A stretch of 64,000 nucleotides of DNA, taken from positions 1,922,001-1,986,000 of the forward strand of contig NZ_CP012750.1 of NCBI RefSeq assembly GCF_001302565.1, read 5' to 3'. Numbering within the stretch: the stretch's first letter is position 1; each line of letters begins with the position of its first letter. This stretch comes from Glutamicibacter halophytocola (GTDB taxonomy: Bacteria > Actinomycetota > Actinomycetes > Actinomycetales > Micrococcaceae). The position numbers and the translations under genes were made by a program. Positions 39,076 through 48,817 of the stretch are shown here, in pieces. The notes under the pieces are model-generated. The model saw only the letters and a list, made by a program, of their open reading frames with translations, searched no databases and was not told the origin of the DNA.

Positions 39076-39093
39076 CAGTTGCATCAAGACTGA

Positions 39094-39143
39094 AAAAGCA
39101 CGGGCCCGCCCACCGGAATTCGGTGGCACGGACCCGTGCTTTT
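39094..39143 (-). terminator. Original pdxS terminator, now behind the orphan gene tail
   Basis: Hairpin with outer stem AAAGCACGGG / CCCGTGCTTT and inner stem CCACCG / CGGTGG, followed by five T on the minus strand. It stands 12 bases after the stop codon of the orphan pdxS tail. Confidence 0.8.
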
Positions 39144-39154
39144 CGCTGTGCAGG

Positions 39155-39214
39155 GTTTACCAGCCGCGCTCCGAAAGGCGGTGAGGCACTGGCACGTCGG
39201 CGACGTTGATGCCG
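39155..39214 (-). repeat. Orphan pdxS 3' end (left att-like repeat)
   Basis: 60-bp direct repeat of the end of pdxS at 47570-47629, with 54 of 60 positions identical by eye and the inner 24 bases (39191-39214) fully identical. Read on the minus strand it encodes [18 protein letters not shown] then TAA, the same C terminus as PdxS apart from Ser for Ala. Most changes are silent, so this was a functional gene end from a different allele, not random similarity. Confidence 0.88.
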
Positions 39215-39770
39215 TGGTCCAAGATGAGCGATCCTCAAAATATGGCGAGAAACGGCCGGAGATCCGAATGCACCCGGACACCACGTACGCTCACGCAATG
39301 CCTTCGTGTGGTAACCAGTGCTGACCACGGTAGAGTAGACAGATGGAGTCCAAAAGCTTCAATCGCGTGAATAAACTCTACTTCAGCAGTCACCCTGCAA
39401 CCGTCAATCAGAGACACCTCCACCTACGACTTCCCGATTCGTGACAGCATGATGCAACAAAAGCCTTACCAAAGTCGCGTAGCGTCTGGTTAGACCCCCT
39501 GTCAGCAGTCCAGCGTCTATGCGATAAGCAATCGGTATTCGAGCGTCCAGTTATCCCAATAACGATTCGGCGTCATATCGTTCGGTGATAGGTTTGCTCG
39601 TTCCTGTTTGTAAACAGCCTTCGACTCCTCTGACGCTGTATATCAGAATTCAATTGCCATCCACCGCTGCAGACTTCCCGCCAGTGTTATCGGAGACGCT
39701 TCGAACCTGTTCGCATCTGTAGAAATGCCGCTAGAATGACAGGAACTCTGCGGCCTGAAAGAGGAGCCTA
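39215..39770. other. Gene-poor left end of the island
   Basis: No convincing reading frame was found on either strand. Base composition is near balanced. The last part holds the likely promoter and ribosome site of the next gene: TAGAAT at 39732-39737 and GAGGAG at 39761-39766. Confidence 0.6.
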
Positions 39771-41531
39771 ATGAAACCAGGAACCTGTGATGAACCGCTA
39801 TGCGACGCCGAAGCCGCATGGGGAGCCAGCAAACGCTCAGCTTGGTGTCAGAATCACGCAGTCCAGCGATTTCGCCAGAAGGGTGTCGAGCCGTTGGAGC
39901 CGGTCCAAAAGCTCACCACCTTCACGCTTACCCGTTGCCTGACATGTGGGTGCGAGGCCCACTACAAGTTGGACTACGCGCTCACTCGCCATGACCCTGA
40001 GGAGGGTGTCTGCCGTGCTTGCTACTGGAAAAAGTGGGCGGAGAGCAGTGAGCAGTGGGGTTCACGTGTCCCCGCAGACCTATCCCAGGTGCGGGAGCTG
40101 GCTGACGAGAATGGCTACGAATATCTTGGTCCTCTGACCAGTCCCGCTCTCGGTGAAGACCCACATCATGTACGCTGCCGGTTCTGTCAGCGGCTATCTG
40201 CCGAGCGCCCCGGCGACATCGCCTGGGGCTGTGGTTGCCAGCGGAGAACACGAAGGAAGAGCGCATCGGCACCATCAGCCAACATAGCCAAGAAGCCGAA
40301 CCTCTTCAAGGAATCAAACAGCGCGGCTCTTGCCTGGTGGGACTACGAACTCAACGACCCTCATTCACTGGCAACAGCGACAATTCGGGCGACGAGGCAG
40401 GCTCATTGGGTATGCCCGAAATGTGACCATCACTTCACAGAGTCAGTTCGGAGAATGGCTGAGTTATATCCATCTTGTCCTGTATGTCTTGAACGGGAGC
40501 GGGCGGAGCGTAAGAAGGAACATGACTACTACTCCAACCTCCATGTCTTCGACGTGCCCGAACTTCTTGTTGCTTGGGCCGATGAGCAAGACCCCAGACA
40601 GGTGTCAGTGACTCAAAACTTCCCACTGAGGCGGTTCGTCTGCGCGAAAGGTCACCACCCACGGATATCGCCCTACACCTTCCTTAAATCCGGCTGCCCT
40701 CACTGCCGTAGTGATGACACTCGAGCCGCAACGGACATGGCGATTGAGCAAGAGCCTGAGTTGATGCGGTTGGACCCAGAAACCGCCTCTCAGTGGCACC
40801 CCACCGCAAATGATCGTTTGGACATCCGCAAGATATCGCCGACGTCGAATCGCGAAGTCACCTGGTTGTGTCACGAGTGCGATCACACTTGGGTGGAAAC
40901 ACCTAAGTCGAGATCCTACGCATCCGCACTCAGATGCCCCGTGTGCCGCTCCATCTTCGACAGCCTCGCCTTTCACCATCCAGATCTGGCAGCAGAGTGG
41001 AGTCCCAACAATCCGATGACCGCTTGGCAAGTCCGTCCTAGCTCGAACGTCATCACGCCGGCATGGGTCTGCTCCACAGATCCGGCTCATATCTTCACGA
41101 TGGCACTGGCCTCAAGGACAAAAGGCGGCACTTGTCCTGAATGCAGCGAGCACGGCAAGTCGAAGACAGAGCTCGACTACCACGCGGCAGCAAAGAAGGC
41201 ATTTGGTAATGCGACATCAGGAAAGCGGATCGCAACAGGAAAGGGCAGCACCGCCCGCATCTGGCGACCCGATATTACGGTAAAGCTTGCAGATGGATCG
41301 GCACTCGTTATTGAATACGACGGCAGTTACTGGCATAGGAACAAGCAGGAGGTGGACGTGAGGAAAAGTGAAGCGGTCCTGAATGCTGGGCACCGCGTTG
41401 TCCGCCTTCGGGAACACCCCCTTGGACCACTGCCGATCGATCACGAGCGCTACTTGGAACTACAGGTCTACCCCACGGCTCCAGACCCTGAGGGGGTCAT
41501 GAAAAGCATAATGATTTGGACAGAGACTTAA
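39771..41531 (+). CDS. Zinc-ribbon repeat protein with C-terminal PD-(D/E)XK/Vsr-like nuclease domain
   Basis: 586 residues. A series of zinc-binding pairs starts at the N terminus (CDEPLC...CQNH, CLTCGC...CRAC, CRFC...CGC). About four repeats of the 'treble-clef/zinc-ribbon' PF14311 type follow: WVCPKC...SCPVC, FVCAKGHH...GCPHC, WLCHEC...RCPVC, WVCSTDPAH...TCPEC, the first, third and fourth preceded by a LAWWD / ASQWH / LAAEWS motif. The last ~100 residues resemble a Vsr/DUF559-like nuclease: RPDITVKL...VIEYDGSYWH...D..KSEAVLNAGHRVVRLREHPLG. GAGGAG precedes ATG 39771. Likely nucleic-acid binding and cleavage; a defence role is an inference from the domains and island location. Confidence 0.8.
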   Translation: MKPGTCDEPLCDAEAAWGASKRSAWCQNHAVQRFRQKGVEPLEPVQKLTTFTLTRCLTCGCEAHYKLDYALTRHDPEEGVCRACYWKKWAESSEQWGSRVPADLSQVRELADENGYEYLGPLTSPALGEDPHHVRCRFCQRLSAERPGDIAWGCGCQRRTRRKSASAPSANIAKKPNLFKESNSAALAWWDYELNDPHSLATATIRATRQAHWVCPKCDHHFTESVRRMAELYPSCPVCLERERAERKKEHDYYSNLHVFDVPELLVAWADEQDPRQVSVTQNFPLRRFVCAKGHHPRISPYTFLKSGCPHCRSDDTRAATDMAIEQEPELMRLDPETASQWHPTANDRLDIRKISPTSNREVTWLCHECDHTWVETPKSRSYASALRCPVCRSIFDSLAFHHPDLAAEWSPNNPMTAWQVRPSSNVITPAWVCSTDPAHIFTMALASRTKGGTCPECSEHGKSKTELDYHAAAKKAFGNATSGKRIATGKGSTARIWRPDITVKLADGSALVIEYDGSYWHRNKQEVDVRKSEAVLNAGHRVVRLREHPLGPLPIDHERYLELQVYPTAPDPEGVMKSIMIWTET

Positions 41532-41786
41532 TTCCGGAACGCAACCTCGAAGGAGTTTGCAACGACGGAGCCACCTTTCGCCCGCTGTACTTGACCGGCG
41601 ACGAGTGGGCGCGGGAGCTGCCAGATGGCTCGTGCACGCTGTCGTGCACATCGGCTGGTTTCGCGAGGAAACTGGCGGGAGCCGGGGCCAACTAGCCGTC
41701 CTGTTAAAACCACGTGGCCTCGCAAGTGGCCTACATGGACGCGAATAGGCCACTGCGTCGCCGCATCGTGTTCCCTGCAAGTTGCG

Positions 41787-41906
41787 CAAATGCGCGAGAA
41801 ACTCATCTTCATCGCCCAGGATCAACCGCAGATACTTGCTACGTCGCACAATGCCCGTGATCGTCGCACCGGCCATCCGCGCTGTGAGAGCTGCAGAACC
41901 AGCCAC
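41787..41906 (-). pseudogene. Fragment of an Fpg-type DNA glycosylase (N-terminal region)
   Basis: The minus-strand frame reads ALTARMAGATITGIVRRSKY then LRLILGDEDEFLAHL, which follows the Fpg segment '..F..RLAG..I..V.RRGKYL...L.....L.AHL'. No initiator region precedes it, and the glycosylase similarity stops after HL. The downstream 41532-41786 holds short frames without recognised homology. Confidence 0.45.
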
Positions 41907-41997
41907 ATGACCACGAGTTGCCCAGACATTCCAACCGACCGCCGGGGCGGTCGCCGGACCGCAGGCACGGCCATCTGGATGAACTTTGCAGGAACCG

Positions 41998-42155
41998 TCA
42001 GCACCTGCGCAGCCGCGGTTGGTTCACCGGGCAGGTGTAGGACGATCTTCTCATGAACGCGTCACGGCGGATCAACGCGAGACCACCCCGTTGTCGGTGC
42101 AGTGTTGGCCCTCGTGTTCATAGGCATTCAGCGGCCGGGCGAAATATCCTGACTT
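41998..42155 (-). pseudogene. Decayed C-terminal end of an Fpg-type DNA glycosylase (copy 1)
   Basis: Two adjacent minus-strand frames give GYFARPLNAYEHEGQHC then, after a frameshift, ALIRRDAFMRRSSYTCPVNQ. This parallels the Fpg/Nei end 'GYF.RSLNVYGREGQPC..C...I.R..F.NRSSYFCP.CQ'. Zinc-finger cysteines are partly lost and stops interrupt the frame. It is homologous at DNA level to 46901-47120. Confidence 0.65.
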
Positions 42156-42182
42156 CACACGCTAGGTACGTTCAATGACAGG

Positions 42183-42590
42183 ATGAGCGATGAAGAGCGT
42201 TTGCCCTGGTCGGAATCATTTTCGCGCCGGGAGTTAGCCATCGCGATCACGGAGCTTGCCTGTGAGAACCTCGCCGATGTGCGTAGGTTCACAGTGGAAC
42301 GGCCTCGCGGACCTCACGGACGTACTCGTCGTGCGCGACAGAAGGCTTCCCTGGCAGACGCGTCGCCAGATGGTCCTGGTACGGCAGCGGCGGCGACGCC
42401 GAGGAGTCCATCTTTGGACATCGGACATCGGGAGTCTGGTGCGTAATTGCTGATGATGGTTTGGTTGGCTTACGCCCTCATCGCGACACCTTGCTCATAG
42501 CTGCCGAAGAATGCTCGTGCGTCTCCCGCCCAAAGATTCAGACGCTGACGAGGTCATGTTCCCGTGGCTTCACGGTCTGGCAACGCGCGG
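42183..42590 (+). pseudogene. Degraded reading frame of unknown family
   Basis: The plus strand starts MSDEERLPWSESFSRRELAI but shifts frame. A second frame further on reads WYGSGGDAEESIFGHRTSGV then WCVIADDGLVGLRPHRDTLL before ending in the end of the MFS gene. The segments look protein-like but no single frame spans them. No family recognised. Confidence 0.35.
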
Positions 42591-43758
42591 CATAGACGAT
42601 TTGTCCGATTAAGATCGCTCCGAACGAGCTGAAAATTCCGGCCGCAAGGGTGATCGAACGGACGCCCAGTGCGAAGGCGATGACCTGGCCGCCCGCCCAC
42701 GAACCAAGCGCTGCGCCTAGGGCAAAGGCGGCCATGTTGACGGTCAGCGACAGGGTCGGCGCGTCCGCAGCTGTGGAGAGGATCCTGACTTGGAGTCCGG
42801 GGATTAGCGCGAACGTCGCGATGGAGAACAGAACGAGGAATACGGCGCTTCCCACCGCGGACAGGGCGACGATCCAGTACAAGATGCAGACCGCCACGAG
42901 CACCCATGAAAGACCGACGACGGTGGCTTCGACGGAGCGATTGGCGCACCGGCCACCGATGAAGTTCCCGATGATCGAGCCGATGCCGTAGGCAAGTAGC
43001 ACCAAGGGCACCCATTCGGCGGGAAAGCCGCCGACGTCAGTGAGCAGGGGCACCATGTAGGTGATCAGGGTGAACATGCCAGCCGCGCACAGCACTGTCC
43101 CCAGTACTGTCCCGATGACCTGCCACTTCAGGAAGGCTCGCACCTCATGCTTTACCGAGGTCGGTTCCACTGCCTTGCCATCGTCGGGGATCGCGATGAG
43201 GATCAGCATGGATGAGATTAGGGCAAGCACGGCGACGCTTCCAAAAGTGGCTCGCCAGTCGATCTGCTGCGCGACGAACGTGCCAAAGGGAACCCCAAGC
43301 ACTGTTGCCAGGTTCACTCCGAGTTGGGTGCCTGCGACAGCGGACCCCTTCTTCTGCTCGGTGGCCATATTGCCTGCGGTCACAACGCATACGGCCATGA
43401 AGGTGCCCTGGATGACTGCGGTGATCATGCGACCGACCAGCAACAGTTCGAAGGTTGGCGCGAAAACGCACACGATGTTGCCGAAGACCGACACGAGTAG
43501 GAGCAGAACGAGCAGGTACTTGCGCCGGAAGCGCGTCGTAACTGCGGTGACGATGGGGCCTCCGACGACGACCGTAAGCGCGTACACGGTGACCAGTAGT
43601 CCTGCCGTGGGTATCGTCACCGACAAGTCTCGTGAGAGTTCACCGAGCATGCCGCTCGGTGAGAGTTCCGCGGTACCGACGCAGAATATGCCCAGGACGA
43701 GCACGGCCATCCGAAAATGTATGGAGGTTTTCCCAGAAGCTGATGAAGAAGAATACAA
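42538..43758 (-). CDS. MFS transporter, DHA1 drug-efflux type
   Basis: 406 residues with about 12 hydrophobic helices. MAVLVLGIFCVGTAELSPSG opens helix 1. The region after helix 2 ends TRFRRKYLLVLLLL, and VGRMITAVIQGTFMAVCVVT is the helix 4 segment. This is typical of AraJ/chloramphenicol-exporter-like DHA1 proteins. Substrate unknown. TTG 43758 is a likely start (GAGGAAG 9 bases upstream); an internal ATG at 43710 is the alternative. It lies 6 bases after the hydrolase gene and is probably controlled by the divergent MerR gene. Confidence 0.85.
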   Translation of the reverse strand: MYSSSSASGKTSIHFRMAVLVLGIFCVGTAELSPSGMLGELSRDLSVTIPTAGLLVTVYALTVVVGGPIVTAVTTRFRRKYLLVLLLLVSVFGNIVCVFAPTFELLLVGRMITAVIQGTFMAVCVVTAGNMATEQKKGSAVAGTQLGVNLATVLGVPFGTFVAQQIDWRATFGSVAVLALISSMLILIAIPDDGKAVEPTSVKHEVRAFLKWQVIGTVLGTVLCAAGMFTLITYMVPLLTDVGGFPAEWVPLVLLAYGIGSIIGNFIGGRCANRSVEATVVGLSWVLVAVCILYWIVALSAVGSAVFLVLFSIATFALIPGLQVRILSTAADAPTLSLTVNMAAFALGAALGSWAGGQVIAFALGVRSITLAAGIFSSFGAILIGQIVYAARCQTVKPREHDLVSV

Positions 43759-43764
43759 GGACCG

Positions 43765-44358
43765 TCACTTCCTCAACGACAGGATCGTGTCGCGGACGTG
43801 GGGCAGCTCGATGATACCCTCGTCGGCGAGGAAGTGCCCTGCACCAATAACAACCTGTGCTGAGACTCCGAGCCGGCCTGCCAGGTCGTCGGTATACGTG
43901 GGCGGGACGATTGAGTCGTTGTCGGAGCGGATGACCACGATCCGATCGATGTGCTCGCTGAAGCCAGTCAGGTCGCAGCCGTCACCTATGAAGTCGTTTA
44001 GCTCGGGCAGAATGGGAAGCCGGTCGATGAAACCCGACACGAGGACCAACGTGCCCAGCCTCCAACTGCCAGGCAGAGAACGCAGATAGCGCAGCACTGA
44101 CAGGCAGCCAAGGCTGTGGGCGATCGCGATCGTGTGCTCGTTCGGCTGTTTCAGGGCGGATCGGACGTTGTTCTCCCACTGAACGGCGCAAGGGTCGAGA
44201 GGGCTCTGCAGTGCTGGGATCGCGGTGCTGATGTTCTCTGCTTCGAGTTGCTCGGCGAGCCAGCCAAACCAGTGGTCCTCGGGGGTCGCGCCGTAGCCGT
44301 GGAAGATTACGGCGCGCTGCTGCGTTGTGCTTGGAGTCTGAAGAGTTGCAGTCGTCAT
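43765..44358 (-). CDS. RBBP9/YdeN-family alpha/beta hydrolase
   Basis: 197 residues. VIFHGYGATPEDHWFGWLAE is the oxyanion/HG region. The nucleophile elbow is IAHSLGCLS, then VVIRSDNDSIVP (Asp) and VIGAGHFLADEG (His) complete the triad. The family is of serine hydrolases with unclear substrates. First gene of a two-gene unit with the MFS transporter. Its ATG lies only about two bases from the predicted transcription start of a MerR-type promoter, so the mRNA may be leaderless. Confidence 0.85.
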   Translation of the reverse strand: MTTATLQTPSTTQQRAVIFHGYGATPEDHWFGWLAEQLEAENISTAIPALQSPLDPCAVQWENNVRSALKQPNEHTIAIAHSLGCLSVLRYLRSLPGSWRLGTLVLVSGFIDRLPILPELNDFIGDGCDLTGFSEHIDRIVVIRSDNDSIVPPTYTDDLAGRLGVSAQVVIGAGHFLADEGIIELPHVRDTILSLRK

Positions 44359-44363
44359 AACTC

Positions 44364-44398
44364 AGGACTGTAGAGGTTCACGTTAATGTGAAGGTCAA
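44364..44398 (-). promoter_or_regulatory. MerR-type promoter/operator of the hydrolase-MFS unit
   Basis: On the minus strand, TTGACC (44393-44398) and TACAGT (44367-44372) are separated by 20 bases, longer than normal as in MerR-activated promoters. The spacer holds the imperfect dyad ACCTTCAC-N6-GTGAACCT. The divergent merR start is at 44420. The predicted start of transcription is next to the hydrolase ATG. Confidence 0.65.
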
Positions 44399-44419
44399 AT
44401 CGAGCAGGAGGAGCGAATC

Positions 44420-44770
44420 GTGCAGATCGGCGAACTAGCGAGAAAGACGGGCGTGAGCGCGAGGGCGCTCCGACACTACGAAGACAGAGGACTCCTAATC
44501 CCCGAACGCACCAGCGGCGGCTACCGCGACTACTCCGAAGAGGACGTGACCCGGGTCGCGCAGATCAAAGCGATGATCGCCGCCGGCCTTAGCACCGCCA
44601 CTATCCGGCGCTACCTCGACTGCGCCCGATCCGGAGATCACGGCACTACTTTAGAGATGTGCCCAGACCTGCGTACCGAGCTCGACTTGATCGCCGAAAG
44701 CCTCACCGCGAAGCAGGCCCACCTCCGTGACACCCAGCAACGGCTTGAGGCGATCACGTTATTCCCTTAG
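44420..44770 (+). CDS. MerR-family transcriptional regulator
   Basis: 116 residues. MQIGELARKTGVSARALRHY then EDRGLLIPERTSGGYRDYSE is the MerR winged helix, followed by the coiled-coil dimer helix (AESLTAKQAHLRDTQQRLEA). One Cys in the hinge (LEMCPDLR) but no metal-binding pair or long effector domain, so it is a short MerR whose inducer is unknown. Divergent from the hydrolase-MFS unit, with its presumed operator between. Confidence 0.9.
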   Translation: MQIGELARKTGVSARALRHYEDRGLLIPERTSGGYRDYSEEDVTRVAQIKAMIAAGLSTATIRRYLDCARSGDHGTTLEMCPDLRTELDLIAESLTAKQAHLRDTQQRLEAITLFP

Positions 44771-45142
44771 GCCCGAAAACAACGTGATCAAGCATCATCG
44801 TGCCTGACTGACGGTGCTCGCTTCACGCAGACCGGCCGTCGAAGCTTCTTCGTGCAATGCTTGCGACATCATGATCAGCTCGATGCCGCAAGGCACGGGC
44901 TGATTTTCCGTTCCGTGCGTTTCATGGCGGACCAGCGCGAAGCCTTGGCTGCCCATCGACGAACAGATCCACCGGCTGGCGTGGCACGGTGTCGAAATCG
45001 AAAACCGGTGTCGGGCCGCCTCGGTCGTGCGGGCGGGCGGATGCTGTCGACTCATTGATTGTGCATGCCCCTCAAAATGTGGGCAGGCTCGGAGTCACGG
45101 CCTTCGAACCTCGCAAGTCCTGGATCTCGTAGAATCAGGCTC
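44771..45142. other. Stretch without a supported gene
   Basis: An open minus-strand frame (44795-45055) exists but has no ribosome site, promoter or recognised motif. Nothing else was seen. Confidence 0.5.
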
Positions 45143-45625
45143 ATGACCCCCGAGGAACTTCAGCAGCTGCCCACCGGCCAACTCCTGCGGTTGGAAACAA
45201 TGGTTCGGGCGGAATTTGCCCGACGCGGAATCTCCCGCACAGCAACCAGCCTGGCCGGCGAACTGGGCGAACACCTCACGAAGCTGGTCTATGGCGGCAC
45301 TCTGGCAGTCCAGGGCACCGCATCGCACGATCTCATCGATCGGCAGGGCCGGACAATTCAGGTGAAGACCCGCATGCTTCCTACCGGTGCCCAGCGTCAT
45401 TTTCAGTTCAATGAAGACCAGCTCGAATTCAAGCTCGCGGTCTGCCTGTGCTTCAACCGTGAGACCTTCGAACTTGAGTGGGCTCGCGAGTTCAATCGTG
45501 CAGAGATAGAAGATCTGAGCACCGATCACGAAACGGGTCCTCGCTTGCGGACCGGCAAAGCGTTCAAGAACGGCAAGGACAAGACCGAGCTGTTCCGTTC
45601 TGCGCTCGCCAGCCTCGACATCTGA
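45143..45625 (+). CDS. PD-(D/E)XK nuclease-like hypothetical protein
   Basis: 160 residues. An N-terminal helix contains TPEELQQLPTGQLLRLETMV, then AGELGEHLTKLVYGG. The segment ASHDLIDRQGRTIQVKTRML has the D...(I/Q)xVK pattern of PD-(D/E)XK nucleases, with the upstream Glu of GELGEH. Similar small proteins (DUF6998-like) occur in defence islands; activity is inferred. ATG 45143 is chosen as the first Met before the conserved helix; no strong ribosome site is visible. Confidence 0.65.
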   Translation: MTPEELQQLPTGQLLRLETMVRAEFARRGISRTATSLAGELGEHLTKLVYGGTLAVQGTASHDLIDRQGRTIQVKTRMLPTGAQRHFQFNEDQLEFKLAVCLCFNRETFELEWAREFNRAEIEDLSTDHETGPRLRTGKAFKNGKDKTELFRSALASLDI

Positions 45626-45720
45626 CGGCGTCCATGCGGTGAAGTACACGTCGCTTGCCGATCGGTGGAATCGCCATGGACGCGCACTATTGCAATCATT
45701 GCGCACACCGTGCACCATAC

Positions 45721-45738
45721 TTCCGAACACGTTCCGAA
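45721..45738 (+). promoter_or_regulatory. Candidate antitoxin operator
   Basis: Two copies of TTCCGAA 11 bases apart (one helical turn), with GGAATC as an inverted half just downstream at the antitoxin start. Placement fits autoregulation of the toxin-antitoxin pair; this is inference. Confidence 0.4.
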
Positions 45739-45750
45739 TATCATGGAATC

Positions 45751-46212
45751 ATGACGATCGCAGCTGATTCTTCCACGACCACCCGACGCTCATCGGATTT
45801 AAGCAAGCACTCGGCCGAGGTCTTCGCCGAGGCCGAGGAGCACCCCGTCACAGTGACCCGCCGCGACGGCGAGTCCCTCGTGCTCATGTCTCAACGCGAG
45901 GCCGACGCCCGCGCCGAGCTCCTGAACATCGCCGGCACGCTCATCACGGTGACGCTCGAGGAGGGCCTCCTGAGCGAGCGCATGGCCAACCAGTACCCGT
46001 GGATGTACGCACTGAGCGCCCAGGATCGCGAGCAGTGCGCCCGGGACCTCATCGACGCCGCTCGGGCGTCCTTCTCGACGCAGCAGCCTCACCTGGCGAT
46101 CACGAAACTCACCAGCTGGCGCGAGACCGCCACGGCAATCGCCGCGGGCCTGGGCTCTGAACCGGTCGAATGGCTTGACGAAGACGACGACACTGTAGTC
46201 GAGCGCCCCTGA
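45751..46212 (+). CDS. Phd/YefM-like antitoxin
   Basis: 153 residues. RSSDLSKHSAEVFAEAEEHP then VTVTRRDGESLVLMSQREAD is the Phd/YefM DNA-binding fold. The C-terminal half (SWRETATAIAAGLGSEPVEW, then acidic DEDDDT) would neutralise the toxin. ATG 45751. The downstream toxin reading frame starts 3 bases after the stop, the usual coupled arrangement, but that gene is frameshifted. Confidence 0.82.
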   Translation: MTIAADSSTTTRRSSDLSKHSAEVFAEAEEHPVTVTRRDGESLVLMSQREADARAELLNIAGTLITVTLEEGLLSERMANQYPWMYALSAQDREQCARDLIDAARASFSTQQPHLAITKLTSWRETATAIAAGLGSEPVEWLDEDDDTVVERP

Positions 46213-46214
46213 CC

Positions 46215-46558
46215 ATGGCTAAGCAGCCCCTTGTCCCACGTCCTGCGAAGAAGTCGGAATACGTATTGAAGTTCGCCACGAATCAGTCGGAAAAGGGCTG
46301 GCGAGACCTCGTAGCTACGATCAGGAACCCCATGAGCGAGACCTGGGATTTCCTGACTCGCGCCCCCCCTTGATGAGAACCCTAAGCAACTACCCGCTCG
46401 AAGGATCGCTGGGCGTGATCACTCGGGGCGACCGAACATGCGAGCGCTGGCAGCATAAACCCACACTCAAGGGCACAGCTCGGGTATGGTTCTACGTTGA
46501 CGCTGGCACTGTCTTCCTGGAACAGGTCCATACTGCTCATCCCCACGAGGCAAAGTAG
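46215..46558 (+). pseudogene. Frameshifted toxin partner (RelE-like cytotoxic translational repressor family)
   Basis: Frame 1 (ATG 46215) gives KFATNQSEKGWRDLVATIRN then SETWDFLTRAPP and a stop at 46371. A second frame gives PLDENP. A third (to 46558) gives SNYPLEGSLGVITRGDRTCE then LKGTARVWFYVDAGTVFLEQ and VHTAHPHEAK. Joined, they match one ~113-residue toxin family. Two single-base shifts are needed, one at a run of seven C (46363-46369), so the toxin is probably inactive unless the run is a sequencing error. Confidence 0.75.
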
Positions 46559-46900
46559 CCCGGCATCGGATAGTTCACCCCGCGGGTGATGCGACTGCTC
46601 TCAGAAGACGTGACAGGCAGGCCCCAGCGCGAAATCGACGCGTTCTTCGGCGATCGGGGAATCCGCCTCGGGCCGCCGCAGTCCACGCCGCCACCGACAT
46701 AAAATGCTCGCGGTGCCAACCCTGCTTCTCATCACGGATGGCACCGCTCTGATGTTCTCAAGCATGCGATACGAGTTATCGATATCGGCGCGACGAGAGA
46801 TCTCGAAAAGGAGGTCTCAGTCCTCCGCATACTCGTACGCGTCCCATTGCCGCCGCGGCTGCCACTCTGCACACGCCGCCACATCTAATTCGGAGCCAGA
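46559..46900. other. Stretch without a supported gene
   Basis: A short plus-strand frame ends at about 46701 (REIDAFFGDRGIRLGPPQST), which looks like the tail of a lost gene but matches no family I recognise. The rest shows nothing. Confidence 0.4.
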
Positions 46901-47120
46901 TTAACGCCGCGGGCGCGGCTGGCACACCGGGCAGGTGTACGAGGAGGCCCCATGAACTCGTCCCGGCGAATCAGCGAGGCCACCCCGTTGTCGGCGCAGC
47001 ACAGACAGGACTGGCCCTCGCGACCGTAGGCGTTCAGCGACCGAGCAAAGTAGCACGATCTTACGCTCACATTGACGTACAGGGCATCGATGCTCGCCCC
47101 ACCGCTCTGCACAAGCCGCC
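46901..47120 (-). pseudogene. Decayed C-terminal end of an Fpg-type DNA glycosylase (copy 2)
   Basis: The minus strand reads VQSGGASIDALYVNVSV, CYFARSLNAYGREGQSCLCC and ASLIRRDEFM. After a one-base shift it reads ASSYTCPVCQPRPRR and stops. This is the helix-two-turn-helix end and zinc finger of Fpg (GGTS..DYV, VYGREGQPC, CP.CQ). The N-terminal catalytic part is absent, so it is a remnant. It resembles copy 1 at 41998-42155. Confidence 0.72.
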
Positions 47121-47515
47121 TCATGGTGAAGAAAATGAGATGAGAAGTATGCCTCGACCGAAAATTGTATCTCGCGGTTACCGGCCTCCCCTGGCGCAAT
47201 CGGACGATATAACAGCTATCGTCTAACTGGCAACTGTCGAGCACCAAGGCTACTGGTCAGTCCAATGTAATGTGCCTGATCAACATCGCTGAGATTGAAG
47301 TTGAGCAGACACTTGTCGCAGCAGTGGAACTGCCAAAAGGGCAATTTACATCAACGTGGCGCGGAAGGCTGTGGTTTGCCTTCGCCTGCAAGCCGCGCTT
47401 GAGTACCACCCGCCCGACCATATATTCCATCGCCAACGTGATAGCAAAACCACATCACCTACGGATACCCATCTTGGACCACGGCGTCAGACTTGAATCG
47501 GCGACTAAGACAGAA
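47121..47515. other. Gene-poor right end of the island
   Basis: No reading frame with recognisable protein features; AT-richer than the flanking chromosome. Confidence 0.5.
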
Positions 47516-47547
47516 GCCCACGCCACCGAAATGTCAGTGGCGTGGGC
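47516..47547 (-). terminator. Terminator after the intact pdxS
   Basis: 11-bp stem GCCCACGCCAC / GTGGCGTGGGC with a 10-base loop, 25 bases after the pdxS stop. It has little T after the stem. It differs from the terminator behind the orphan tail, so it came with the element. Confidence 0.7.
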
Positions 47548-47569
47548 CCGAATTGCTTGGTATTTCAGT

Positions 47570-47629
47570 GTTTACCAGCCGCGCTCGGCCAGACGGTGAG
47601 GGACAGGCACGTCGGCGACGTTGATGCCG
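47570..47629 (-). repeat. pdxS 3' end (right att-like repeat)
   Basis: Direct repeat partner of 39155-39214. It forms the last codons of the intact pdxS ([18 protein letters not shown] and stop). The fully identical core is 47606-47629. Confidence 0.88.
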
Positions 47630-48471
47630 ACCATGGCTTCGCCCAGGCCGCGGGAGATCTTGGCCAGTTCGTCCGGGTTGTCGAAGAAGGTGGTGGCCTT
47701 CACGATGGCTTCGGCGCGCTGCACCGGGTTGCCGGACTTGAAGATGCCCGAGCCGACGAACACGCCGTCTGCTCCCAGCTGCATCATCATCGCAGCGTCG
47801 GCCGGGGTGGCAATGCCGCCCGCGGTGAACAGCACTACTGGCAGCTTGCCGGTGTGCGCGATTTCCTTGACCAGCTCGTATGGTGCCTGCAATTCCTTGG
47901 CGGCAACGTACAGCTCGTCTTCTGGAAGGGCAGCGAGCTTGGCGATCTCGGCGCGGATCTTGCGCATGTGCCCGGTGGCGTTCGAGACATCGCCGGTGCC
48001 TGCTTCGCCCTTGGAACGGATCATCGCAGCACCTTCATTGATGCGGCGCAGGGCTTCGCCCAGGTTGGTGGCACCGCAGACGAATGGCACGGTGAATGGC
48101 CACTTGTCGATGTGGTTCTCGTAGTCAGCTGGGGAGAGCACCTCGGACTCGTCGATGTAGTCCACACCCAGGGACTGCAGGATCTGCGCCTCGACGAAGT
48201 GGCCGATGCGGGCCTTGGCCATGACCGGGATGGAGACCTCGTTAATGATGCCATCGATCATGTCCGGGTCGCTCATGCGCGATACGCCGCCCTGGGCACG
48301 AATATCTGCAGGAACACGCTCCAGAGCCATGACTGCAACGGCACCGGCATCTTCAGCGATGCGGGCCTGCTCGGGAGTGACCACATCCATGATGACGCCG
48401 CCCTTGAGCATTTCGGCCATTCCGCGCTTGACGCGATCCGAACCGACGACGGAGTTCTGAGTGTTAGACAT
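47572..48471 (-). CDS. pdxS: Pyridoxal 5'-phosphate synthase lyase subunit
   Basis: Makes PLP from ribose 5-phosphate, glyceraldehyde 3-phosphate and ammonia delivered by PdxT. The 299-residue TIM barrel has [20 protein letters not shown], the catalytic Lys in [10 protein letters not shown] and the second Lys in [13 protein letters not shown]. It ends with [23 protein letters not shown] 48471 is used; AAAGGA is about 12 bases upstream, a long spacing, and TTG 48495 is an alternative. The 3' end is an island attachment site. Confidence 0.97.
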
Positions 48472-48817
48472 GGGAGAGCTGATTCCTTTCGGCAAAGCAA
48501 AACTGCCACCAGAATTCCCGGCCTGTGTTGCTACAGAGCCGATCGGCGGCGGAAAGTACTCAATAATCGTAGGATCTGCCCACTTTATTACCGCGGGTGT
48601 GTCGTAACATTGTTACGATAGTAGACTTCTCCACCTGTTACCGATCGCGGCGTAACATTCGGAGCGTTGCATTTCCCCTTATCAGCTGGCATTTTGGCGA
48701 AACACGGGTGCGCCGGCTCAATCCCCCGCCAAGGGACACAAAGCCGGTTCATGGAGCCCGATGCGCGCGCGAAGCACAGCACTGTTGCGGCTTCAGTGCG
48801 ATGCCCGTCCTCAGTAC
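48472..48817. other. pdxS upstream region
   Basis: 346 bases between the pdxS start and the ABC permease stop. It holds the pdxS leader and promoter area, with the GTAAC repeats described separately. No gene or terminator hairpin was identified for the ABC operon. Confidence 0.6.
48602..48618. promoter_or_regulatory. Inverted repeat upstream of pdxS
   Basis: TCGTAAC-ATT-GTTACGA, a perfect 7-bp dyad 130 bases upstream of the pdxS start. CTGTTACCGAT and GCGTAACATTCGG lie within the next 40 bases. Repeated GTAAC half sites suggest a regulator-binding region, possibly a PdxR/MocR-type site. The regulator is not encoded in the window. Confidence 0.5.

Follow-up and report, generated by a model that had tools for sequence, protein, structure and literature searches.

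Within the window (the entire 64,000-nt stretch of DNA analysed) the minus strand carries a complete pdxS gene (47572–48495; NF003215, 521 bits against a cut-off of 395, and PF01680) whose final codons belong to a tail that occurs a second time further downstream. A repeat search of the window returned one 64-nt direct repeat, with minus-strand copies at 47566–47629 and 39151–39214 (89% identity, 8,415 nt start to start); the best ungapped alignment of the copies matches 57/64 positions, whereas 20 composition shuffles reached 36/64 at best, and both contain an identical core of 24 nt (47606–47629 and 39191–39214). The initial annotation had described a directly repeated tail of about 60 bases, 8.4 kb apart and sharing a 24-bp core, and this description is borne out. 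It had further described the tails as encoding the same C terminus with mainly silent differences; the 54-nt tails differ at 6 positions and the encoded peptides at one residue (gene, LAERGW; orphan copy, LSERGW). It had also placed a terminator of its own behind the second copy, and each tail is in fact followed by a GC-rich, terminator-like hairpin, with predicted stabilities of –31.3 kcal/mol after the tail that completes pdxS (47516–47547, minus strand; genome G007 has a similar sequence behind pdxS) and –41.9 kcal/mol after the orphan tail (39093–39144, minus strand). ARAGORN found no tRNA genes in the window.

The repeat delimits an island of 8,415 bases (39215–47629) with a G+C content of 59.2% compared with 62.7% elsewhere in the window, and the tail completing pdxS forms its proximal end. 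Nearest the distal end, the plus strand encodes a 586-aa protein (39771–41531) with three treble-clef zinc fingers (DUF4379; PF14311, E 6.4e-32) and a C terminus with weak, sub-threshold similarity to the nuclease-like DUF559 (PF04480, E 0.023). The protein has 582 relatives at E ≤ 1e-10. Next on the minus strand come a degraded Fpg-type DNA glycosylase gene (41463–41906; PF01149, E 0.0026, below cut-off), which matches an intact gene of the G007 island at 78% DNA identity, an MFS efflux transporter (42538–43758; PF07690) whose nearest named model, Cmx/CmrA (NF033135), scores 267 bits and so falls below its cut-off of 400, and a serine hydrolase (43765–44358; PF06821, E 3.7e-22). The plus strand then encodes a MerR-family regulator (44420–44770; PF13411, E 3.8e-23), a DUF6998/mREase_II-like protein (45143–45625; PF22522, E 1.1e-6; PADLOC mREase_II, E 1.2e-9) and a Phd/YefM-like protein (45751–46212; PF02604, E 4.4e-6, slightly below cut-off). 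Across the islands described below the cargo consists of few genes of mixed kinds, among them nuclease-like, restriction, toxin-antitoxin and efflux genes.

An empty site, which the initial annotation had proposed to look for, is present in G011, a genome of the same genus: it aligns to the joined flanks of the window's island at 90.5% across 926 nt, up to and including the pdxS tail, then at 74.7% across 1,147 nt of flanking sequence, and its single tail is identical to the orphan tail (57/57 nt). Judged by this comparison, the orphan (left) copy is the native 3′ end of pdxS and the copy now completing the gene is an island-borne import. The pdxS frame is intact in the window and in the carrier genomes found, and pdxS still works because the island brings along a replacement for its last bases. 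Among the 17 other genomes of the genus, 12 have sequence of the left flank of the window's island no more than 1.5 kb behind pdxS. The orphan tail had been expected to be missing from island-free relatives, and a second tail occurs in just one of these 17, G007, which bears a different island of 15.35 kb with other cargo at the identical site and with the same ends. Among the marks of a site-specifically integrated island, direct repeats matching the attachment core at both ends are present and G011 supplies the corresponding empty site, while a recombinase of its own was not found in the islands searched.

The initial annotation had proposed searching other genomes for islands starting at pdxS, and such islands occur in another species of the genus, two further Micrococcaceae genera, Promicromonosporaceae and Nocardia. 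An unbiased tail scan detected co-oriented tandem pdxS tails in 5/395 genomes of the family, all five with the distal motif defined below. Exact matches to this motif numbered 8 among about 85,000 genomes, and seven of them, in four families, are orphan pdxS tails, the seven named matches having been selected by part of the motif. Tandem arrays are found in Myceligenerans pegani (M. pegani), Antribacter and G230, and islands of unlike content share the site and the ends in G007, G023, G063, G230 and the named genomes. The view of pdxS as an unusual target therefore needs qualifying, as it is uncommon yet recurrent, being used in several actinobacterial families. When up to three mismatches were allowed, the motif was found in 22/395 family genomes, five of which are the tails; the remaining 17 were taken as chance on the basis of their matched letters. 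None of the 17 has tandem tails in the 395-genome scan, but the pattern used there detects no pdxS tail whatsoever in four of them (G324, G082, G223 and G169). The near matches L050, L051 and L052 and the one-mismatch matches L032 and L037–L039 were judged by eye to be chance; L103 (Paenarthrobacter), in which the motif is embedded in other sequence, was likewise rejected.

The ends of the islands are more alike than their contents. Orphan tails start with a distal end like CAATCTTGGACCACGGC fused to the pdxS core ATCAACGT in 13 of 15 cases, the exceptions being the second tail of G230 and the third of Antribacter, which count against the explanation favoured below. Conservation is limited to the 17 nt that immediately precede the core, where 10–13 of the 13 sequences agree at each position compared with 5–7 of 13 at positions –40 to –24, and inward of this 17-nt end the islands are mostly unrelated to one another in sequence. 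In the window, this 13-sequence comparison places the 17-nt distal end at 39212–39228 (minus strand, TCATCTTGGACCACGGC), joined to the core. Behind the imported terminator, an inverted copy of the distal end lies on the plus strand at 47470–47489, forming a 20-nt inverted repeat with 39207–39226 (95% identity) that had been missed in the initial annotation. The inverted copy matches the distal motif at 16/17 positions, which was equalled by 0/300 shuffles. Islands of Micrococcaceae have such a copy behind the carried tail and terminator (weak in G063), and it is absent from the five islands tested outside this family. The 17-nt distal motif and the Micrococcaceae inverted copy probably serve to bind the recombinase or an accessory factor. 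The predicted junction is palindrome-like in all five Micrococcaceae islands, with fold z-scores of –3.4 to –7.2 (60 shuffles) that include the terminator hairpin and so do not test the long stem by itself, three core bases being missing from the model of the G023 junction. Mismatches in the arms do not favour pairing within one strand, as two islands have A-C where G063 has G-T on the same strand.

No tyrosine recombinase (PF00589) was found in five delimited islands (six carriers searched), there is no match inside or close to those of G000, G007, G023 and G063, and the nearest PF00589 match of G230 lies 42 kb upstream of pdxS. Likewise, no serine recombinase (PF00239) is encoded between the tails in 12 carriers, and domain scans of the ORFs in the window island revealed no recombinase. 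The PF00589 searches cover carriers other than the six named genomes G395–G400, which include the longest arrays; these were judged by reading the listed ORFs, among which no recombinase was seen, and by Pfam scans of eight of them, so that a short or diverged recombinase may escape. In Antribacter, the stretch from pdxS to the first orphan tail is not on a single contig. The left end of the island had no match among plasmids and phages. The PdxS tail peptide was found in 8 plasmid records and 0 phages, and in all six records inspected the tail continues from an upstream pdxS and the distal motif is not nearby, with one further matching place in record H5 lying outside the inspected sequence. 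At a lax E-value, the Sinomonas tail with its distal end gave 207 plasmid and 81 phage partial matches, none covering more than 80% of the query among the best 25 and 15, respectively. Searches of viral contigs gave 0 and 0 matches to the exact motif and, with pdxS as the query, a single 64% relative. No free circular or extrachromosomal copy of an island was found in the plasmids, phages and viral contigs searched, which, like the missing recombinase in the islands searched, also counts against the favoured explanation. Among the literature matches listed, none concerns islands in pdxS, which does not imply their absence from print.

Starting from the directly observed tail duplication, empty site, differing islands at one site, shared ends and arrays, and from the lack of PF00589 and PF00239 in the islands searched, we consider it likely that these are non-autonomous islands that a recombinase supplied in trans has integrated site-specifically into the end of pdxS. 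The site-specific, gene-restoring integration proposed in the initial annotation is thereby upheld by the empty site and the same-site islands, with the amendments that no recombinase was found and that the completing tail is imported. In this model the island would be a non-autonomous integrative element, and the gene core ATCAACGT, within the GINV codons, would recombine with its counterpart on a circular form equipped with a pdxS tail, a stop codon and a terminator. Insertion would swap the tails, the imported one completing pdxS and the native one being displaced to the far end, and repeated insertion at the rebuilt site would give rise to tandem arrays. Since the searches of the island revealed no recombinase, a helper would be needed, acting in trans from elsewhere and most likely of the tyrosine type. 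We infer the circular intermediate, the recombinase class, the role of the inverted repeat and present-day mobility. Further observations count against this model: the Kribbella orphan tail is not adjacent to pdxS, G117 has a proximal end but 139 kb of its sequence contain no distal tail, a second proximal end in G023 has no distal tail in the following 44 kb, the inverted copy is weak in G063 and lacking in the five islands tested from other families, and the seven named matches were selected by part of the motif.

The repeat coincides with the shared tail, and actinobacterial pdxS tails are conserved enough for pairing, so Campbell-type homologous recombination via the ~58-nt shared tail might place the islands with no dedicated recombinase, in line with none being found in those searched, the motif being kept through common ancestry of the donors. 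We regard this as unlikely, as the position of the junction is constant in 15 orphan tails, the 17-nt motif is retained although the islands are mostly unrelated further in, and exchange by RecA is not expected to be efficient over as little as 58 nt. Integrase-bearing elements usually integrate at gene ends with a carried tail, and the islands might instead be decayed members of this class that have lost their integrase, with no activity in trans; the decayed gene fragments in the window island and the two proximal ends without partner would fit such decay. It would, however, require loss of the integrase in each of the five delimited islands searched with PF00589, and short islands with both ends carry one or two genes, which makes this account improbable too.

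A homing-type nuclease that spreads the island by cutting pdxS is suggested by the 586-aa protein, as its zinc fingers and weak nuclease-like domain adjoin the distal end and PHROGs HNH and endonuclease profiles match its zinc-finger part; the Nocardia island also encodes a GmrSD-type nuclease. However, the protein occurs in 1/18 genus genomes (the window's own) and is missing from G007, a blastp comparison of six islands revealed no relative of it, and its 582 relatives mark it as a common protein with no known link to pdxS. Homing alone would moreover not create the tail-swapped junction, and we reject it as highly improbable.

In their logic the islands come nearest to the SCC elements of rlmH and to Xer (pdif) modules. 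Staphylococcal and enterococcal cassette chromosomes (SCC/ECC) lie in the 3′ region of the conserved rlmH gene with ~50-bp direct repeats at both ends, highly variable cargo and remnants at the same place (PMC6222049). The pdxS islands resemble them in lying at a conserved gene's 3′ region with direct repeats at the ends and variable cargo; in contrast, they target pdxS in actinobacteria, carry no ccr-type serine recombinase (PF00239) between the tails, and have a repeat comprising the entire coding tail and stop codon and an inverted copy behind the carried terminator. Acinetobacter Xer (pdif/Re27) modules are described as recombinase-less units of resistance, toxin-antitoxin or other genes flanked by recombination sites and thought to be mobilised by an enzyme encoded elsewhere (PMC7399989). 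The pdxS islands searched likewise revealed no recombinase and are bounded by putative recombination sites, but the site is the coding end of a gene, whereas XerC/XerD sites serve in the modules. A resemblance of the pdxS core to V. cholerae dif1, the one dif site compared, was rejected, as 12/28 positions match and 41% of shuffles equal this. Integron cassettes are small and arrayed, and CTX-phi attP has two inverted sites ~90 bp apart within a ~150-bp hairpin (PMC4792948, PMC3089051). The pdxS islands similarly include small arrayed cassettes, and their attachment region is one that may fold on one strand; however, no integron integrase (PF00589, inside or close to the G000, G007, G023 and G063 islands) or Xer site was seen, and the inverted copy is confined to Micrococcaceae. 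SGI1 and PAISt insert precisely into the 3′ ends of conserved protein genes, trmE and bacA, respectively, as pdxS islands do at pdxS, and SGI1 has its own Int and Xis. No Int/Xis-type recombinase was found in the pdxS islands searched, and a single pdxS site serves islands of mostly unrelated genes.

With these islands pdxS joins the list of protein-gene attachment sites, a single site that in several actinobacterial families receives mostly unrelated, often tiny islands, with no resident recombinase found in those searched. More speculatively, and with less than even confidence, the housekeeping-gene 3′ tail might be the attachment site of an actinobacterial cassette system in which small cassettes lacking a recombinase enter and accumulate behind pdxS. 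Many of these would carry toxin-antitoxin or defence genes, each would renew the gene tail, and a recombinase encoded elsewhere, either dedicated to them or belonging to the host, would move them, perhaps by acting on a palindrome folded from a single strand. The shared 17-nt end is a handle for finding further islands and the enzyme, and the defined attB/attP pair makes the mover of such islands directly testable. The cargo (restriction, toxin-antitoxin, nuclease-like, efflux and other genes) suggests that the 3′ end of pdxS is a hotspot for defence and resistance.

The 3′ end of pdxS occurs twice in the window about 8.4 kb apart, as the initial annotation had claimed: a repeat search of the window found 64 nt at 39151-39214 and 47566-47629 with 89% identity and a spacing of 8,415, and the match (57/64) is far beyond chance (≤36/64 in 20 shuffles). 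The right-hand copy completes a full-length pdxS (47572-48495, minus strand), and the 24-nt core described for the two tails is indeed identical in both. A hairpin of its own is predicted by folding behind each copy, in line with the terminator ascribed to the second one. That both encode the same C terminus with mainly silent differences holds for most positions, but one of the 6 that differ between the 54-nt tails changes an amino acid. No tRNA gene was found within the window.

To establish which copy is native we compared the window's genome with 17 others of the genus. The empty site expected in relatives is present in G011, whose single pdxS tail is identical to the window's orphan (left) tail at 57/57 positions and is followed by the window's left flank, the same arrangement that results when the window flanks are joined. 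In addition, 12 of the 17 other genomes have flank sequence ≤1.5 kb behind pdxS. The left copy is therefore the native one, and the tail that now completes pdxS was imported. The genome closest by pdxS (G015, 97%) lacks a second tail and has the flank ∼1.3 kb downstream. Its differences from the window number 5/54 in the tail versus 19/780 before it, a step that fits, though weakly, with foreign DNA that begins at the core; no such step was seen on comparing G011, G017 and G007 with the window.

Islands starting at pdxS do occur elsewhere. In G007, also of the genus, two tails spaced 15.35 kb apart enclose a different island at the same site, with an intact Fpg-type glycosylase gene and, judged from translations only, mercury-resistance-, heavy-metal ATPase- and IS3 transposase-like genes. 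The two islands have in common ∼200 nt inside the distal end, a proximal inverted motif, Fpg fragments and MerR-type regulators. Among the 18 genomes, these two alone have an exact copy of the 16-mer GCCGTGGTCCAAGATG; 10 match it with ≤1 mismatch. Across 395 family genomes the tail pattern matched in 276, to which the tail counts apply; 16 have at least two matches, co-oriented and in tandem in five from three genera (the window's genome, G007, Sinomonas mesophila and the Micrococcaceae G063 and G230). The other 11, all of genus g10, carry two or three tails each at distant places (other contigs, opposite strands or >500 kb apart), which probably belong to pdxS paralogues. In Arthrobacter and Paenarthrobacter records pdxS is also found on plasmids, and a viral-contig record (IMG/VR, L125) has a PdxS that shares 64% identity with that of the window.

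Scanning ∼85,000 genomes for exact matches to a 20-mer that runs across the distal end and the core yielded 8, of which 7 are orphan tails of pdxS (Sinomonas, two Myceligenerans, Promicromonospora, Antribacter, Nocardia and Kribbella). Successive tails are 45.7 kb apart in S. mesophila, 1.6 kb in G063, 7.3 kb in M. indicum (which has one further, decayed tail bearing the distal motif), 2.7 kb in Promicromonospora and 2.4 kb in Nocardia, with tandem arrays in G230 (5.4 and 1.2 kb), M. pegani (0.83 and 0.62 kb) and Antribacter (2.9 and 0.45 kb between orphan tails, on a 7-kb contig separate from pdxS).

The 17-nt distal motif adjoins the core in 13/15 orphan tails. The most frequent base at each position from –17 to –1 is shared by 10–13 of 13 sequences, compared with 5–7 at –40 to –24, and positions –23 and –19 each keep a G in 11/13. 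Seven named genomes were picked by part of this motif, but the five nucleotides beyond the scan pattern are also conserved, and the five family genomes were singled out by tandem tails alone. On the proximal side, a block 3′ of the stop codon (ACGCTGGTA, then GGCGATTC, then the hairpin) is common to the Nocardia island and to G230 and G117, both of the Sinomonas genus; this side is therefore partly conserved across orders. Micrococcaceae islands have an inverted distal-end copy 63–88 nt behind the stop, matching at 15–16/17 positions in four (0/300 shuffles as good) and 12/17 in G063 (a score reached by 4% of shuffles); none beyond chance was found in five islands of other families. Modelled circular junctions paired the two arms in 5/5 folds (z –3.4 to –7.2, the enclosed terminator contributing). 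G117 has the proximal end only: its motif lies behind pdxS (G117:C1 near 2,310,925) with metal-ATPase-like genes next and no second tail within 139 kb. Short repeats behind the terminators in Myceligenerans, GCAGAACAGCGAC being one example, and similar ones in Antribacter (L105, L107) perhaps represent insertion-sequence ends.

The cargo is mixed, with a defence-like character that is frequent but not universal. When ORFs from five islands and the 17 kb behind pdxS in G117 were compared by blastp, little was found in common except Fpg pieces, MerR regulators and P-type ATPases; the other pairs were one short (S. mesophila/G230) and one of 27% (S. mesophila/G117). The window's island encodes a zinc-finger/nuclease-like 586-aa protein (profile match; 582 relatives at E ≤ 1e-10, those named among 120 listed being actinobacterial, most often Streptomyces and Kitasatospora), along with MFS efflux, hydrolase, MerR, mREase_II-like and Phd-like proteins. 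It also holds two Fpg-type remnants on the minus strand 4.9 kb apart (repeats D3, D5, D8), at 41463-41906 (weak Pfam support) and 46885-47247 (no Pfam support). The intact Fpg of G007 sits near the proximal end, like the OGG-like glycosylase of G230. Other cargo comprises one GmrSD-type restriction protein (Nocardia), RHH plus PemK (M. pegani), DUF4143 ATPases (Promicromonospora, M. indicum), NUDIX/NrtR and a phosphorylase-type effector (M. indicum), SUFU (G063), a polysaccharide lyase (Antribacter) and an OLD-like ATPase (S. mesophila, where the genes in the first 20 kb of the stretch look metabolic from translations only).

The proposed site-specific integration restoring the gene accords with the tail arrangement and with the empty site in G011: recombination between an attB within pdxS and an attP carrying a pdxS tail leaves just such an arrangement and is its probable source. 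One tail is left unexplained by this, that of Kribbella antiqua, which bears the distal motif but lies behind a helicase-like gene (L108, G400:C2 near 240,670) with pdxS on another contig. Homologous recombination through the shared tail would be an unlikely source of the islands, and homing a very improbable one. Tyrosine recombinases (PF00589) are present in 6/6 carriers searched and absent from the five delimited islands, and G117 has two integrase-like fragments ∼129 kb downstream; that the islands are relics whose integrase was lost seems rather unlikely. Under site-specific recombination the enzyme would be supplied from elsewhere, outside the islands, and would most likely be of the tyrosine type, since integrases of that type typically show extended identity across the end of a gene. 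No free attP was seen among the matches listed from phage, plasmid and viral collections.

Closest in logic are the SCC/ECC elements at rlmH (PMC6222049) and Xer modules (PMC7399989). The enzyme that defines SCC/ECC, a serine recombinase (PF00239), was not found between the tails in 12 genomes (matches elsewhere in 10), and the pdxS core does not resemble the Xer sites when compared with V. cholerae dif1. Because both were tested and neither was found, the pdxS islands, whose examined members carry no recognisable recombinase, stand as a separate variant: they are tail-swapping gene-end islands.
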